IMG/VR virus record: IMGVR_UViG_3300025099_000112
Span: 1 to 26,569 of that record
Length of the DNA: 26,569 nt
Source of the DNA: a virus
Strand: one strand, 5' to 3'
Shown piece by piece: positions 4,607 through 19,512 of this stretch; positions within the stretch are counted from its first letter, which is position 1; each line of letters starts with the position of its first letter. Made by a program: the position numbers and the translations under genes. A model generated the notes under the pieces. That model had not been told where the DNA came from. It was given only the letters and a program-made list of their open reading frames with translations, and made no database searches.

Positions 4607-5163
4607 TAAATAAACACGGTTTTATATGATGACAATAAGTCCATTGCACTTGTTGGAATTTCATTTATTGATTCCCCAACTACAAAGTCAGACCGATTGT
4701 CATAATAGGTCGTTACCATTTGCAACAACGCTTGTTTCAGGAAAGAATCATCAATCCCGGTAGTGACATAAGTGATTTTTACTTCCTTTGCCGGTAGTTC
4801 GTTCAATTCTATTATTTCATTATCCAATCCCTTTGCCGAATATGTTGCGGCAGTTCCATCAACGGTTGCAGATGAAATAGATGCAACTGGAGCAAAAGGT
4901 AATGCGATCCTCGTGTCAGCAAATGGCAAATAGTAAGTTCTATTTTTTGCCACAATATCTTTTGAAATATAATTTTCCGCCACGATTCTTGCTTGGGTGA
5001 TCATTTGCCCAATAATAGTATCATCTGCCGTGGTGTCAATTCTTGCAAAATCCTTGACATTTGCCGCCGTGATGATTTCACTTCCGGTTGTGGAATTGAT
5101 TTTAATTTGCGGTTGAAACGTAATTGGCGGGTCGCTGAAATAAGTGTTTTGTGTATATGGCAT
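4606..5163 (-). CDS. Head-tail connector protein (gp6-like adaptor)
   Basis: 185 residues. The N-terminal half has the helical ANVKDFARIDTTADDTIIGQ and QARIVAENYISKDI pattern of gp6-like adaptors (PF05135 group), followed by a beta insertion (PFAPVASISSATVDG) and a final helical DDSFLKQALLQMVTTYYDNR. These adaptors bind under the portal ring. It shares one base with the next upstream gene (5163) and with the joining protein gene downstream, so the connector genes are translated as one chain. Confidence 0.87.
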   Translation of the reverse strand: MPYTQNTYFSDPPITFQPQIKINSTTGSEIITAANVKDFARIDTTADDTIIGQMITQARIVAENYISKDIVAKNRTYYLPFADTRIALPFAPVASISSATVDGTAATYSAKGLDNEIIELNELPAKEVKITYVTTGIDDSFLKQALLQMVTTYYDNRSDFVVGESINEIPTSAMDLLSSYKTVFI

Positions 5164-6626: not shown

Positions 6627-6914
6627 TTATTTTATTATATCGCTGTTGTTATGTGCGTCAATTATTTCTTTTTTCATAAACTTTCCTGTAGTTTGAAATA
6701 TTTCTTCAACATCATTTCCCCAATGGTCTTTAACAATTTTGTATCCTATTAACTTCATTTCATTAATATGTGTTCCAACAAATTGTCCTATTTGAAACCA
6801 GAAATCTTTTGGTGATAATCTATCGGTTAGTAGAATTTGGTTTGGGTTTTGTCTTGACTTAACTGACCAAATGTAATATTTGTGTGGGTTTTTAAGTGTG
6901 TAATTAGTTTCCAT
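6627..6914 (-). CDS. Unknown 95-residue protein, first gene of the accessory block
   Basis: 95 residues, start METNYTLKNPHKYYIWSVKS, with several aromatic residues and a mixed alpha/beta look (DRLSPKDFWFQIGQFVGTHI, KLIGYKIVKDHWGNDVEEIF). No family, signal peptide or membrane segment is recognised. It is the first gene after the promoter element 6943..6980, which is almost identical to the one driving the replication operon, so early and strong expression is likely. A role against host functions is conceivable but unsupported by motifs. Confidence 0.68.
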   Translation of the reverse strand: METNYTLKNPHKYYIWSVKSRQNPNQILLTDRLSPKDFWFQIGQFVGTHINEMKLIGYKIVKDHWGNDVEEIFQTTGKFMKKEIIDAHNNSDIIK

Positions 6915-13851: not shown

Positions 13852-14053
13852 CTTTAAATTTTTTGTAAAGGTAAATATAAAATTCTTTCCACTTGGTGTC
13901 ATATTCTTTTTTGGAATATGTTTTGCCGGATGTTTTAGGGTTGCCGTTTATCTCATAGACTAAAATAAATTCCTTGCCTTGGGGTTTTGGATAACATCGT
14001 ATGGAATTGTTTTCGCACCATCGAAAAGCATCAAAATACTCATTTAGATTCAT
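13844..14053 (-). CDS. Unknown 69-residue protein
   Basis: 69 residues, start MNLNEYFDAFRWCENNSIRC, with a basic, Lys- and Tyr-rich second half (SGKTYSKKEYDTKWKEFYIY, LYKKFKDV). No family recognised. It shares its first base with the last base of the primase-helicase gene (14053) and overlaps the next gene by 8 bases, so it belongs to the replication operon. The composition would suit a small nucleic-acid-binding or replication accessory protein, but nothing specific is visible. Confidence 0.65.
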   Translation of the reverse strand: MNLNEYFDAFRWCENNSIRCYPKPQGKEFILVYEINGNPKTSGKTYSKKEYDTKWKEFYIYLYKKFKDV

Positions 14054-15726
14054 TAAAAAGGTATTGTGTCTTTTACGACTGTGATTCTGTTTTTCTTTTC
14101 ATCTATGGGTTTATATACGCCACCATTTTTAAAATCAGGTGCCACGGTGAAATATCCTTGTTTTCCGTTTTCTTTTCTCTTTACCTTTTGGATATGTACT
14201 TGAACCGAATCCGATTCATACATCGTACGTTCTCCAATTGACCGGTAAACGGTAAGACAATTATAAGACTTATTAAAAAAGTCAGATGACCCACTAATAT
14301 CATAGGGCGTTGGTATTTTAAAAATACCATTGTCTGATTCCATTTTTCTTGGGTGTGCAACCAAAAAAAGATGGGTGTTTGTCTGTTGTACGAATTGCGT
14401 TATTTCTGAAAGTACCCGACCAACGTATGAATGGTCTTTTTGTGCCGAATGGTCAAGCATATTCCAAGGGTCGATTGTTAAAACATTGACACCTTTTTGA
14501 AACACTAATTCCCGGAATTTATCAAGGATTGATTTTAGTGTAAGATTCTGAAGGTCTATTTTCACAAAGTAAAAGTGTTCTTCAATAAAATTTTTTGTTT
14601 TGTTAAGATCATCCGTTGTGCAATGCTTTTCATTAAGTTTATTTGCCAATCGTTTTATGTGGCTTTCATAGGGAAACGATTCAGGGGAAAAGTACGCCGT
14701 TCTAAACCCATATTTAAGGGCAAGATTGCAAGATATTTGATCAACAAAGTCTGATTTCCCCGAATTGGGTATTCCGGTAATGGTTGACCACTCCCCAAAA
14801 GCCATTTTAAACCATTCATCAGAGTCCGCAAGTTGAATTGAGTAGTTGACTATACCTTTTTCATTATAATTGATTACATCTTGCCAAATGTCGTTTATAT
14901 TTATAACCCCCTCAAGTGGAAATGACTTGGTTTCTTTTAATATTGACCGAAGTGTTTCAGCACCTTTTTCCGTTAATACCTCGTTAGCATCTTTATATTC
15001 TCCAAAGTCAACATATTTACAACGGTAATTTCCAAACCTTCGAGCGAGTTCATTTCTAAGTGATAACCCGGCATCATCGTTGTCGGTGCATAACACTATT
15101 TCTTTTTTTTCTGTAAAGTATTCAAAGCAGTTGTCAAGATATTCAAGGCGTTGATTTCCTTTTGATGCACCATTTGGAACACTACAAACGGAATAAATAC
15201 CCGCTTCCGATAATGACAATGCATCCATTTCACCCTCGACAATATAAATCGTGTCCATTTCTTTTATGTTGTCAATACCATAAAATATTAGTTCGGCACC
15301 GCTCACCATTTTAAAATTCTTTTCCCCATCACGAAATTTGGTGTTGATTAGTTCCCCATTTCTGTAATAATTGAAATTGATAGCTTTGCGCCTTTTATCT
15401 ACTTGGGGAAAATATTCAGTTGATTCGCCAATTTTCCAATGCGATAGTGTTGCGGTGGATATACCTCTTTTAGAAAACCATCCAATTGTCCGGTCTGATA
15501 ATTCAACTTTTGTTTCAACTGGTTTAATATATTCTTTTTTAGGCTTAAATTTTACATTGCCCGACCAATTACAATGATGGCAATTATAGACACCCTTTTC
15601 AATGTTTACCGACAAACAAGGGTCGGATTTGTTTTTTCTTGTGTGAGAACACTTTGGGCATTTTGTTTTTTGTACGTTGGCGTTCGATTTAAGTTCAATG
15701 CCAAGGTTTAGAAATTCATCGATCAT
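14053..15726 (-). CDS. Primase-helicase, T7 gp4 type
   Basis: 557 residues with all three modules. Zinc ribbon: CPKC (23 to 26) and CHHC (49 to 52). TOPRIM primase: IVEGEMDALS with Glu164 to Asp168 region, and CTDNDDAGLS (213 to 222). RecA/DnaB-type helicase: Walker A GIPNSGKS (318 to 325), Walker B VNVLTIDPWN (413 to 422). This combined architecture makes RNA primers and unwinds the fork, as T7 gp4 and Twinkle do. No replicative DNA polymerase gene is present in the window, so the host polymerase probably copies the genome. The gene overlaps the PD-(D/E)XK-like gene upstream by 11 bases. Confidence 0.93.
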   Translation of the reverse strand: MIDEFLNLGIELKSNANVQKTKCPKCSHTRKNKSDPCLSVNIEKGVYNCHHCNWSGNVKFKPKKEYIKPVETKVELSDRTIGWFSKRGISTATLSHWKIGESTEYFPQVDKRRKAINFNYYRNGELINTKFRDGEKNFKMVSGAELIFYGIDNIKEMDTIYIVEGEMDALSLSEAGIYSVCSVPNGASKGNQRLEYLDNCFEYFTEKKEIVLCTDNDDAGLSLRNELARRFGNYRCKYVDFGEYKDANEVLTEKGAETLRSILKETKSFPLEGVININDIWQDVINYNEKGIVNYSIQLADSDEWFKMAFGEWSTITGIPNSGKSDFVDQISCNLALKYGFRTAYFSPESFPYESHIKRLANKLNEKHCTTDDLNKTKNFIEEHFYFVKIDLQNLTLKSILDKFRELVFQKGVNVLTIDPWNMLDHSAQKDHSYVGRVLSEITQFVQQTNTHLFLVAHPRKMESDNGIFKIPTPYDISGSSDFFNKSYNCLTVYRSIGERTMYESDSVQVHIQKVKRKENGKQGYFTVAPDFKNGGVYKPIDEKKNRITVVKDTIPF

Positions 15727-16162
15727 TTAATTTAAGTTTTAGTAAGTTTAGTTGGTGGTGAAAATTAATAATTTCTTTTCTGATTTTTATGTTTGATTGC
15801 GGAAAATCTTTTGATGTTTGTTTATTCATTCGGATTCGCTCTATTTTACCCATTTCAAATATATCATCAACCTTGAAAAGAAATCCATCATTTTTAACTA
15901 CAATCAAAAGGTAAATTCTCAAGGGGTCTTTCGTTTTGTGTTTTAGTTTTCTAAGATTGTCAATCTTTTGTTTTTCGATATACCATCGATCCCACATTTC
16001 GGAACGTTCCTTGACTTCAACAAGAGTTTTAATATTGTTTGTGTATCCATAAATATCGAATGGCGAAAACTCGTTTTCAGACAATTTAAAGTCACCATAT
16101 TTTGAAAGTGCATCCAAACACCTTTTTTCGGTTTCTCTTGTTTTATTTTTATCGTAATGCAT
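15716..16162 (-). CDS. PD-(D/E)XK-like protein of the replication operon
   Basis: 148 residues from ATG 16162 (MHYDKNKTRETEKR); an ATG six codons earlier would extend the overlap with the initiator gene from 14 to 32 bases. The N-terminal half carries a nuclease-like motif: a helix with Glu, then SPFDIYGY with Asp36, then KTLVEVKER with Glu49 and Lys51, spacing typical of the PD-(D/E)XK fold. Helical, basic C-terminal half. Such small nucleases can resolve recombination intermediates or process forks. It directly precedes the primase-helicase in the operon. Motif-level evidence only. Confidence 0.7.
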   Translation of the reverse strand: MHYDKNKTRETEKRCLDALSKYGDFKLSENEFSPFDIYGYTNNIKTLVEVKERSEMWDRWYIEKQKIDNLRKLKHKTKDPLRIYLLIVVKNDGFLFKVDDIFEMGKIERIRMNKQTSKDFPQSNIKIRKEIINFHHQLNLLKLKLNDR

Positions 16163-16841
16163 CAAATTCCCTCCCTCCAAGTTTTTGGATTAATTGTTCT
16201 AATTTTGCCAATCTACCCTCTTTTGATTTTCTAATTTCCGGAATGCTTAAAACATTCTTTTGCCAAAACGAGTCCTTTCTTGCTTTATTTATTATCCACC
16301 AGAGTTGCCTTGGGTTGCAATTATCTTTTTCATCTGCCAATCGAATGGTATCAAGCCATTTTATTTTTTGTGCCGTTGTTTTTGGTCTTGTCCTTTGTGG
16401 AAATAATTCAATTATGGCATCATAACATTTAATATAGTTGTCCGCATAATCAGACACTTTTTTGCTTGTTTTTGATTTGCGGTTATTTATATTTATATTA
16501 TTATTATTATATACTATACTATTATCCATTAACTTTTCTTTAATACCCCCTTTAAGTTTTCTTTGTGGGGGGTTTAAGAAAAGTTTACGGGTGCTAATTC
16601 TGTTTTCATCTAATTCATAATGGGCATTTAAATAATCAAATTCAATGAGTTGGTTTATCCATTTTGATATTGATACTTTCGAAACTTTATAGAGTTCAGC
16701 AAAATATTTATTAGTGGCAAAACAAAATCCTTTTTTATTAGATAGGGCGGTTATTTCACCATAAAGCAACTTGGCATTGGGGGTTAGTCGGTCATCATAC
16801 CGAACATCTGCCGGGATGATTGCATAGTAGTTTGGTTTCAT
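16149..16841 (-). CDS. HTH replication initiator-like protein
   Basis: 230 residues. The N-terminal part (PNYYAIIPADVRYDDRLTPN, KLLYGEITALSNKKGFCFAT, KVSKVSISKWINQLIEFDY) is a winged helix of the HTH_36 type (PF13730). An Asn/Ile-rich linker (NNNNININN, about 112 to 120) leads to a helical C-terminal part with TTAQKIKWLDTIRLAD and FWQKNVLSIPEI, resembling the DnaD-like region of phage initiators. The linker is encoded by TTA/ATT repeats that form the AT-rich half of a possible origin. The gene sits just upstream of the fork enzymes, as lambda O-type initiators do. Confidence 0.83.
   Translation of the reverse strand: MKPNYYAIIPADVRYDDRLTPNAKLLYGEITALSNKKGFCFATNKYFAELYKVSKVSISKWINQLIEFDYLNAHYELDENRISTRKLFLNPPQRKLKGGIKEKLMDNSIVYNNNNININNRKSKTSKKVSDYADNYIKCYDAIIELFPQRTRPKTTAQKIKWLDTIRLADEKDNCNPRQLWWIINKARKDSFWQKNVLSIPEIRKSKEGRLAKLEQLIQKLGGREFDALR
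16478..16585. other. Possible replication origin inside the initiator gene
   Basis: A nearly pure A/T stretch (about 16482..16530, including ttattattattat) is followed by a long inverted repeat: aacttttctt (16531..16540) with aagaaaagtt (16576..16585), and inside it ccccc (16546..16550) with ggggg (16567..16571) around a 16-base loop. AT-rich unwinding DNA next to an inverted repeat inside an initiator gene is the arrangement known from lambda O and several phages of Gram-positive hosts. No iterons are clear, so this is a candidate. Confidence 0.45.
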
Positions 16842-16843
16842 TT

Positions 16844-17098
16844 TTAGTCCTCGGTTATGTCTTTAAGTTGATTTGAAAAACTTCTTAATTCAACAAAAAT
16901 ATTTCTAAATTGTTTTATTGTGATTTTATCATCATCAAAAAGTTCGAAAAGTATTTCAAGAAAAAATTCAAATTCAGCCTCGGTCATCCTGCCAACGTAA
17001 TCATACCTAATAGATATGTCGCCAATTGATGTATTAGTTCGCCAAACACGTTGGTCGATCTCGTTCCAAAATACGTTTTTAAATTCGTGAAAACTCAT
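16844..17098 (-). CDS. Unknown acidic 84-residue protein
   Basis: 84 residues, MSFHEFKNVFWNEIDQRVWR, then TSIGDISIRYDYVGRMTEAE and an acidic helical end (FELFDDDKITIKQFRNIF). The DDDKI piece followed by a helix loosely recalls an EF-hand-like turn, but the loop is too short to claim one. No family recognised. It lies 2 bases upstream of the initiator gene and its ATG overlaps the stop of a 29-residue membrane micro-ORF (ATGA), so all three are probably co-translated. Confidence 0.66.
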   Translation of the reverse strand: MSFHEFKNVFWNEIDQRVWRTNTSIGDISIRYDYVGRMTEAEFEFFLEILFELFDDDKITIKQFRNIFVELRSFSNQLKDITED

Positions 17099-17184
17099 TT
17101 GCTAAACATTATAATTAAAACCGTAATGCTCATAATTAAAGCATATATTCCACTAATATATTCAAATGTTTCCAAAATACTCAT
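17095..17184 (-). CDS. 29-residue single-TM micro-protein
   Basis: Translated by eye: MSILETFEYISGIYALIMSI then TVLIIMFSK. The start (17184) lies inside the last codons of the DnaA/VRR-NUC gene in another frame, and the stop overlaps the next ATG as ATGA (17098..17095). Residues 10 to 27 form one hydrophobic helix, with an acidic N-terminus and a lysine at the end. It exactly fills the gap between two replication genes and is too short for usual gene callers. Its role is unknown; membrane tethering of replication or simple translational coupling are possible. Confidence 0.55.
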   Translation of the reverse strand: MSILETFEYISGIYALIMSITVLIIMFSK

Positions 17185-17812
17185 CAATTAATTGTTTACA
17201 ATCATCAAAGTCATAAGAAACAGATGTTTTCCAATTCTTGTTTTTAAGCGTTTTAAGGCACTTTTCTTGGTTTTCGGTAGGTTTATTAGGTTTAATCTTT
17301 AATTCGATTGCTAAGCCGTTAAAATCGCCCTTAGAATCAAAACAAAGAACATCCGGGACACCGGCAACCCCTCCGAGTTTTTTAAACTTAAATCTTTCAA
17401 ATGGTGTTCGTTTGCCCTCATTTGGACAATGGATCACAAATGCATCCGGATATTGCATCTTAAAATACTGCATTACGGCGTTTTGGAATTGATCCTCTTT
17501 GGTGAGATACTTGTTAAAATTATTAGGCATAATATTTTTTTCTATTGATTCAAAATTTTCTTTAAGAAAGGGGTCTTGATTGTACTGAAAAATGTTCTCA
17601 ATTGTTTTGATGCCGTGCATCACGGTTGCGTGATTTACTTTTACTTTTTCGCCAATAGCACTATATGAGATAGGGCGAACGTGATCCCTTGATAATTTAT
17701 AATAAATTGACCGGGCATCAATGAATTTTCTCAATCTTGTTTTTCTTCCGATGTCAAATCCAAAATAGTAATCGACTTCTTTTTTAATAAATTCGGTTGT
17801 AAGTGTTTCCAT
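17162..17812 (-). CDS. Fusion of DnaA domain IV-like HTH with a VRR-NUC nuclease
   Basis: 216 residues in one frame. Residues about 25 to 73 resemble the C-terminal DNA-binding domain of DnaA: RKFIDARSIYYKLSRDHV, YSAIGEKV, and VNHATVMHGIKTIEN, the last close to the DnaA signature D-H-T-T-V-x-H. Residues about 103 to 200 form a VRR-NUC domain (PF08774): KEDQFQNAVMQYFK, GVPDVLCF with Asp154, and GLAIELKIKPNKPTENQ with Glu170, Lys172 and Gln182. The catalytic residues look complete. There is no AAA+ domain. The protein may bring a structure-specific nuclease to DnaA-box-like sites. In other phages I would expect the two domains as separate proteins. Confidence 0.87.
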   Translation of the reverse strand: METLTTEFIKKEVDYYFGFDIGRKTRLRKFIDARSIYYKLSRDHVRPISYSAIGEKVKVNHATVMHGIKTIENIFQYNQDPFLKENFESIEKNIMPNNFNKYLTKEDQFQNAVMQYFKMQYPDAFVIHCPNEGKRTPFERFKFKKLGGVAGVPDVLCFDSKGDFNGLAIELKIKPNKPTENQEKCLKTLKNKNWKTSVSYDFDDCKQLIDEYFGNI

Positions 17813-17813
17813 A

Positions 17814-18581
17814 CTATAAAATTAATGAACCATCCTTTGCCATTTCACTTGTTTCGTATCCATAAGCAATTCCGGTTTTTAAATAATGATTCCATTGTTC
17901 TAAAGCGTTTTGATATGCCAATCTACCCTTTTCGATCATATCATCGCTTAATCCATAAACAACCACCGAAAATGGATGCTTGGTTTCTATTGCTATAAAA
18001 CGAAATCGCTTTGGGTCAAATCCTAATGCATCAGAATAAAATGCCGCTTGTAGGTGATAGCCATAGTTGTAAACATCCCTTAAAAACGCCCTTGGCGAAT
18101 TATCCTGACAAGTTTTGATGTCACTAATCCAACCATTACCTTTGACATCCGGTCGAACACGAACCGGTACTTTGTTATGAATACCATAGTGTGATAACTC
18201 AACATCACCCTTTGTGTAAAATATTGCCAAATCATTTTGCATAAATTGGCGTTTAATATTTAAGATAATATTCCCCGGTTGTTCCTTGTCATTACTGATG
18301 TATAAAAGTTCCTTCCCCTTGTGATCTTCTTGTTGCTCTTTTCTTTTTTTCATATACCCTTCCCCCCTTGGTATATAATCAACAATCGCATATTTCTTGT
18401 CAAATTCCTTTGGCTCAAGTATCGCCTCGTGTACTGCCGTACCAAGTGCCAATGAATCACTTGAAAAAGGTCTTTGATTTAGAAAATGATAAACCGATTT
18501 CTTGTGAATCGTTTTCAATCCGGATGCGGAGATTTCCGGTCTGGAATGATAGTTTTCATTTGAGTCCTTTTGTGTTTTCAT
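17814..18581 (-). CDS. RecE/Cas4-like PD-(D/E)XK exonuclease
   Basis: 255 residues. Motifs in order: ALGTAVHEAILEP with His51, VPVRVRPDVKGNGWISDIKT with Asp145 and Asp154-Ile-Lys156, and YGYHLQAAFYSDAL (173 to 186). This is the pattern of the PDDEXK family PF12684 and RecE-type 5'-3' exonucleases. It would resect double-strand ends to give single strands for the ERF annealing protein two genes upstream. The set exonuclease, SSB-like and ERF forms a phage recombination module. The gene lies one base upstream of the DnaA/VRR-NUC gene. Confidence 0.88.
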   Translation of the reverse strand: MKTQKDSNENYHSRPEISASGLKTIHKKSVYHFLNQRPFSSDSLALGTAVHEAILEPKEFDKKYAIVDYIPRGEGYMKKRKEQQEDHKGKELLYISNDKEQPGNIILNIKRQFMQNDLAIFYTKGDVELSHYGIHNKVPVRVRPDVKGNGWISDIKTCQDNSPRAFLRDVYNYGYHLQAAFYSDALGFDPKRFRFIAIETKHPFSVVVYGLSDDMIEKGRLAYQNALEQWNHYLKTGIAYGYETSEMAKDGSLIL

Positions 18582-18811: not shown

Positions 18812-19087
18812 TTAAAACGGTAAATCGTTTTCTTCTTTTACCACTTGGGTTTTTGTTTCGCCACCCTTATAGGTATCAAGTTGAAAATAAAGTCCCTTGT
18901 CCCCTACCTTTATGTCAAATGCCAATTGCTTTTGACCATTGTAGTCCTTAAAATACTCAGATTGAGTTTTTGCCCACTCGACAAATTCGTTCAAGGTAAT
19001 TATCATTTTACCTTTTACAAAATCCGGTGCGCCTTCCCTTGGTGGAAATGTGATTAAACCTTTTGGATAAATCTTCTCGTTAGTCAT
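18812..19087 (-). CDS. SSB-like single-strand DNA-binding protein (probable)
   Basis: 91 residues. The body has short beta stretches (YPKGLITFPPREGAPDF, KQLAFDIKVGDKGLYFQLDT), and the protein ends in an acidic tip NDLPF that is the standard SSB C-terminal protein-interaction peptide. The length is shorter than bacterial SSB, and the OB fold cannot be confirmed by eye. Its place between ERF and the exonuclease supports a role in coating single strands during recombination and replication. It ends 10 bases before a strong terminator-like hairpin. Confidence 0.72.
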   Translation of the reverse strand: MTNEKIYPKGLITFPPREGAPDFVKGKMIITLNEFVEWAKTQSEYFKDYNGQKQLAFDIKVGDKGLYFQLDTYKGGETKTQVVKEENDLPF

Positions 19088-19089
19088 AA

Positions 19090-19512
19090 TTAAAAAATAT
19101 TAGTGTTAGAATTAAAATTTGATTTTGGTGTTTGGGGTTTTCTGTTTGATGCGGAGTTGGCATCATCATCTACTGATTGCAACGCCAATAATGATGCTAA
19201 AGTATAACGCCTGAAATATGTTATTTCTGAGCCTTTCTTTTGGGCATCTAATCCTTGGGATAGTGGAATGGCTGAAACCTCCTCCTCGCCGGTTTCCGTG
19301 CATCTAAGAACGGTTTGAACCTCATTCTCAATAATGGGTTGTAATATGACAACCTTATTCTTTTGGAGTATCGGCAAAGTGTGTTCCAACAATTGATTGA
19401 TGTCAAAATACTTTGATTTGAAAAAAGGATTGTTTGCGCCCTTTGTTATTTTACCAATTTCCTTTTGAATTTGGAATAGTTTGGTTGAAATGGATTTGTT
19501 TTCACTTATCAT
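19090..19512 (-). CDS. erf: ERF-family single-strand annealing protein
   Basis: 140 residues. The family core (PF04404) is clear: FFKSKYFDINQLLEHTLPIL, then GSEITYFRRYTLASLLAL (94 to 111) and VDDDANSAS, with the closing DDD typical of ERF. The protein anneals complementary strands in recombination-dependent replication and circularisation. The Ser/Asn/Pro-rich tail (residues 118 to 140) is a flexible end as in other ERFs. It overlaps the small HTH gene by 4 bases (ATGA) and is followed by the SSB-like gene after 2 bases. Confidence 0.9.
   Translation of the reverse strand: MISENKSISTKLFQIQKEIGKITKGANNPFFKSKYFDINQLLEHTLPILQKNKVVILQPIIENEVQTVLRCTETGEEEVSAIPLSQGLDAQKKGSEITYFRRYTLASLLALQSVDDDANSASNRKPQTPKSNFNSNTNIF

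Follow-up and report, generated by a model that had tools for sequence, protein, structure and literature searches.

What does the DNA-binding domain of a replication initiator do in a phage protein that has no AAA+ part, and why does it share one reading frame with a nuclease? The question is raised by a single gene in the window, that is, the whole stretch of 26,569 nucleotides of a marine phage analysed here (Table 1). The gene joins DnaA domain IV to a VRR-NUC nuclease in a real single frame; a sequencing or frame error was rejected, as 9 further IMG/VR contigs have the same uninterrupted 216-aa frame at 89-95% identity. The first-pass annotation had considered both that relatives might have two separate genes and that the frame here might be an error; separate genes do occur in close relatives, but the fused frame is found in many lineages and is not an error. 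Domain IV is the sole DnaA part of the protein, with the AAA+ domain III, as noted from the start, and domain I absent.

Table 1. Features of the window around the fused gene (positions in the window)
Feature	Position	Strand	Evidence or remark
Fused gene, DnaA domain IV-like domain then VRR-NUC nuclease	17162..17812	(-)	216 aa; profiles and predicted structure
DnaA domain IV-like part, residues 1-94	17531..17812	(-)	Pfam 1.1e-8; alignment to 1j1v; Z 15.6-15.9 to 1j1v/3pvp
VRR-NUC part, residues 95-216	17165..17530	(-)	end-to-end counterpart of the separate 122-aa gene in L011/L018
PD-(D/E)XK active site: D154, E170, K172 (PD...ELK), Q182	17267..17353	(-)	invariant in alignments A5 and A3
ATG of Met95 with A-rich upstream stretch gaaaaaaatattATG	17528..17545	(-)	likely internal start, nuclease alone; start-type codon kept 25/25
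ExoVIII-like PD-(D/E)XK exonuclease, directly upstream in transcription	17814..18581	(-)	phrog_412 1.4e-57, DUF3799 1.2e-19
ERF single-strand annealing protein	19090..19512	(-)	Pfam ERF 2.8e-20
Conserved 84-aa protein directly after the nuclease	16844..17098	(-)	82-95 aa proteins in the same place in distant relatives
HTH_36 replication initiation protein	16149..16841	(-)	Pfam HTH_36 3e-14; phrog_270 3.8e-23
Primase-helicase	14053..15726	(-)	phrog_239 1.4e-90

Profiles and predicted structure agree on the two parts, as the initial reading of a DnaA-like domain joined to VRR-NUC within 216 residues had it. Pfam Bac_DnaA_C (PF08299) matched residues 9-71 above its cut-off (E 1.1e-8; 35.3 bits against 31.5), and TIGR00362, the DnaA initiator family, covers the fused protein at profile positions 346-437 only. 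Residues 124-198 were matched by Pfam VRR_NUC (PF08774) with E 3.4e-4 and 21.1 bits, slightly below the curated cut-off of 23.8; all 14 fused relatives matched this family at E <= 0.01 (best 4.7e-9), and both families were matched by all 14 fused sequences of alignment A5. The nuclease half also matched phrog_824 (3e-28), phrog_5702 (Holliday junction resolvase, 2e-7) and phrog_93, and its top PDB sequence match was the solved VRR-NUC 4qbl (5.6e-7). In an AlphaFold model of the fused protein built with 22 window and locus sequences (mean pLDDT 84; about 95 across most of residues 11-90), the first 96 residues superpose on the DnaA domain IV-DNA-box complex 1j1v with Z 15.6 and an rmsd of 1.2 over 90 residues, and the N-terminal part matches the domain IV-DNA complex 3pvp with Z 15.9, bearing out the domain IV fold predicted at first pass. 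Residues 101-216 resemble VRR-NUC structures (4qbl, Z 12.8; 4qbn, 10.3; 4qbo, 10.0), with archaeal Hjc ranking next at Z about 7. With its pTM of 0.53, the model does not tell how the two domains sit relative to each other.

The nuclease has the PD-(D/E)XK active site plus the extra conserved Gln of VRR-NUC enzymes, and the active site, earlier described as complete, indeed looks so, with D154, E170, K172 and Q182 unchanged across 14 diverse fused relatives and a Lys-to-Gln spacing of 10, the same as that of K47/Q57 in the VRR-NUC protein of PMC4103454. Stand-alone VRR-NUC proteins (psNUC 4qbl, stNUC and saNUC; Pennell et al. 2014, PMC4103454) have the fold, the active-site residues, the nuclease size and the phage setting in common with it, but they consist of the nuclease alone, whereas the phage fused protein has DnaA domain IV ahead in the same frame. 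Such bacterial and viral proteins are dimers that cut four-way junctions (PMC4103454). The closest known case of a DnaA-type DNA-binding domain attached to a nuclease is the TIRYT group; Y1 HuH TnpA-REP/TIRYT subclass 2.1 proteins have a C-terminal Bac_DnaA_C domain and flanking sequences unlike DnaA boxes (PMC6006769). However, their HuH tyrosine nuclease is unrelated, their DnaA domain is C-terminal, and they are transposon-related, in contrast to a phage recombination module; the fused protein has VRR-NUC as its nuclease and no HuH/tyrosine nuclease domain of the Y1 HuH TIRYT type. No paper on the combination of a DnaA domain with VRR-NUC was found in the literature searched, most subscription journals being outside its scope, in line with the earlier remark that the fusion is not known as a described system.

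The setting of the gene suggests what the nuclease might work on. The order of annealase, small acidic-tailed protein, ExoVIII-like exonuclease, DnaA domain, VRR-NUC, 82-95 aa protein, initiator and primase-helicase is kept in divergent phages, even where nuclease identity is only 50-60%. Given this recombination and replication module and the junction-cutting dimers among known stand-alone VRR-NUC proteins, a recombination endonuclease with a DnaA-derived arm is the most economical reading, and we consider it fairly probable that the protein is a phage Holliday-junction-type resolvase whose DNA-binding arm derives from DnaA domain IV and which is made as long and short forms. The 91-aa protein at 18812-19087 has an acidic EENDLPF tail at its end and matched no Pfam family; an acidic C-terminal tail is a trait of single-strand-binding proteins. 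Between initiator and primase-helicase, the window has at 15716-16180 a gene with a weak Hjc match (E 0.008) that could encode a second resolvase, and this slot is filled by different proteins in L018, L060, L061 and L087. A 95-aa protein is identical letter for letter at 6627-6914 of the window, near the capsid genes, and at 1377-1664 of L012, before the recombination module; this gene has moved.

Two scans of 80 loci each gave 155 distinct related IMG/VR contigs by contig name. Of these, 31 are fused and 119 adjacent, the DnaA domain gene immediately preceding the nuclease gene with an overlap or a gap of at most 60 nt; 3 have no DnaA domain and 2 are cut. Among the best 80 loci of the nuclease-alignment scan, 31 were fused (216-245 aa), 44 had a DnaA domain gene overlapping the nuclease start, 3 had none and 2 were cut; the second scan, with a query from a different branch of the family, yielded 75 loci with two genes (overlapping or at most 60 nt apart) together with 2 fused and 3 DnaA-less loci, all five being repeats of the first set. 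The close relatives L011/L012 and L018 have two genes, for a DnaA-domain protein of 122-127 aa and a VRR-NUC of 122 aa, which overlap by 11-20 nt. In the first 80 loci, every overlap between the two genes is 2 mod 3, from 8 to 116 nt (two-gene loci among L123-L192), and in these loci the DnaA-domain protein has at its C-terminus a conserved basic tail that extends across the nuclease start. L196, a phage contig that was assigned to a gammaproteobacterial MAG by binning, has a different HTH-like protein of 99 aa (4715-5014) in the slot before VRR-NUC, with a 17-nt overlap. L191 has no DnaA domain, and in L187/L189 it has apparently been lost, with a junction-like remnant kept; the domain is thus dispensable in some phages. 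No cultured phage with both parts was found in the phage collection searched; a first genome-contig scan with the DnaA domain gave no matches, and a second one a few MAG contigs.

These counts bear on the alternative that the two parts are independent neighbours that became one gene when a stop codon was lost, with the DnaA-type domain acting as a phage repressor or origin-binding regulator, the nuclease working alone and the fusion being neutral. Most relatives have two genes, some lack the DnaA domain, the nuclease start codon is kept, and many other phages have a DnaA-domain gene standing alone, in most of those sampled with no VRR-NUC found nearby. Stand-alone DnaA domain IV proteins are indeed frequent among phages, with at least 434 loci in one viral-contig scan; they have the same domain and have likewise lost AAA+ (e.g. 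the 'DnaA protein' of Olleya phage Harreka_1) but are not fused to a nuclease, and several have long C-terminal tails, helical or coiled-looking, such coiled-looking tails being seen in many of those in loci L038-L113. Against this alternative, the pair stays adjacent despite strong divergence, and the nuclease tree (67 rows, 119 columns) shows fused forms repeatedly. Fused and split forms interleave on it, the fused label takes 7 changes, at least 4 of them forced by well-supported branches, and a topology with all fused forms in one clade is rejected (p-AU 0.00025), ruling out a single origin of all fusions there. Thus fusion has been tolerated or favoured repeatedly, and we regard independent neighbours as unlikely. 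The DnaA-domain tree (77 rows, 85 columns) also takes 7 changes and, with its few columns and long branches, does not reject a single fused clade (p 0.06). Support of 100/98 places the DnaA domains of L011/L018 with the split type, whereas their nucleases fall within the fused group of the window; phages have thus exchanged the DnaA-type part.

The junction itself points to more than one product. The junction codon is ATG, GTG or TTG in every one of the 25 distinct fused genes, and where it encodes Leu it is always TTG, a codon that makes up 18% of Leu codons in these genes; six fused relatives with 63-77% mutual identity have 14 conserved Leu, and the junction one alone is TTG in all six. The separate nuclease of L011/L012 and L018 starts exactly at Met95 of the fusion, and AAATATTATG, before and at Met95 in the window, recurs identically or almost so ahead of the separate nuclease gene in L011/L018. 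Conservation of a start-type codon, with Leu always written TTG, makes internal initiation of the nuclease alone likely; judged by codon use, the junction start codon is likely to be under selection, and a nuclease-only product would hence be made beside the full-length one. Programmed frameshifting, considered for the overlapping two-gene forms, is not needed, since a stop in the nuclease frame usually lies within one or a few codons ahead of the nuclease ATG, an argument that bears on the sequence upstream of that ATG and not on the overlaps.

How the arm might meet DNA was approached through its residues and through DnaA boxes. It has the whole-domain fold, the minor-groove Arg and the recognition-helix His in common with DnaA domain IV (1j1v, 3pvp), but differs from DnaA in having no domains I-III. 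In the alignment to 1j1v, the conserved Arg26 takes the place of E. coli Arg399 and His61 that of His434, whereas Asn60 and Ala62 stand at the positions of Asp433 and Thr435. We take His434 to be a box-binding residue of the recognition helix in 1j1v, and Asp433 to have a role beside it. In E. coli DnaA, R399 is a minor-groove contact and T435 matters for box binding (PMC5742627). The form NHATVIHA is also seen in the complete DnaA of locus L201, thus Ala at the T435 position does not by itself exclude DnaA-box binding.

It had been suggested earlier that the protein may cut or nick at DnaA-box-like sites, and a site-specific nickase starting phage replication, or recombination-dependent replication, at such sites would fit the DnaA-type DNA-binding fold with its conserved Arg and His and a nuclease lying within a replication module. 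The boxes do not support it: TTWTNCACA occurs 2 times in the window against 5.5 expected and 18 times in 256 kb of non-redundant related loci against 31-40 expected (31 under a third-order model), and the perfect box TTATCCACA is absent from these 41 non-redundant related stretches. DnaA boxes as origin or target were thus rejected for want of enrichment in the window or relatives. As the VRR-NUC enzymes described so far recognise DNA structure (PMC4103454) and the phage has its own initiator gene, a nickase of this kind seems highly improbable. An AT-rich stretch lies at 16478-16590 inside the initiator gene, with an imperfect inverted repeat (16526-16549 / 16567-16590, 79%) and no DnaA box within it; by likeness to lambda gene O it is a possible phage origin. 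The low box counts might instead suggest an anti-host nuclease or competitor, whose arm binds DnaA boxes of the host oriC, with the origin blocked or cut and boxes avoided in the phage genome, and loci with stand-alone DnaA domains are likewise somewhat poor in TTWTNCACA (22 against 38 expected). However, 14-25% of letter permutations of TTATNCACA are equally low, thus the shortfall is not specific to DnaA boxes, and we hold an anti-host role to be very unlikely.

We therefore return to the resolvase with a DnaA-derived arm. Most likely, the VRR-NUC halves would dimerise, and the dimers would cut branched DNA arising from ERF- and exonuclease-driven recombination and replication, with the DnaA-type arms tethering the enzyme to duplex DNA or placing it at preferred sites. 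The internal start at Met95 would probably give the nuclease alone as well, so that one gene yields long and short subunits, which would parallel the two proteins of two-gene relatives. Several observations count against the resolvase with an arm, namely that E. coli-type DnaA boxes are not enriched, that Ala replaces T435, that L191 and L187/L189 do without the DnaA domain, that the VRR_NUC score is below its curated cut-off, and that the gene at 15716-16180 may be a second resolvase. More tentatively, and with some doubt, phages may repeatedly join a DnaA-derived arm to VRR-NUC as a DNA-targeted resolvase, the internal start giving tethered and untethered subunits and possibly mixed dimers; if true, the ratio of tethered to untethered subunits in mixed dimers could set where and how the enzyme acts.

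The locus presents the DNA-binding domain of a replication initiator reused without its AAA+ motor as the partner of a junction-cutting-type nuclease. The pairing of the two parts in 150 related phage contigs points to a functional link between DnaA-type DNA binding and phage recombination, a link that is directly testable through split and fused relatives and through the conserved start codon at the junction.
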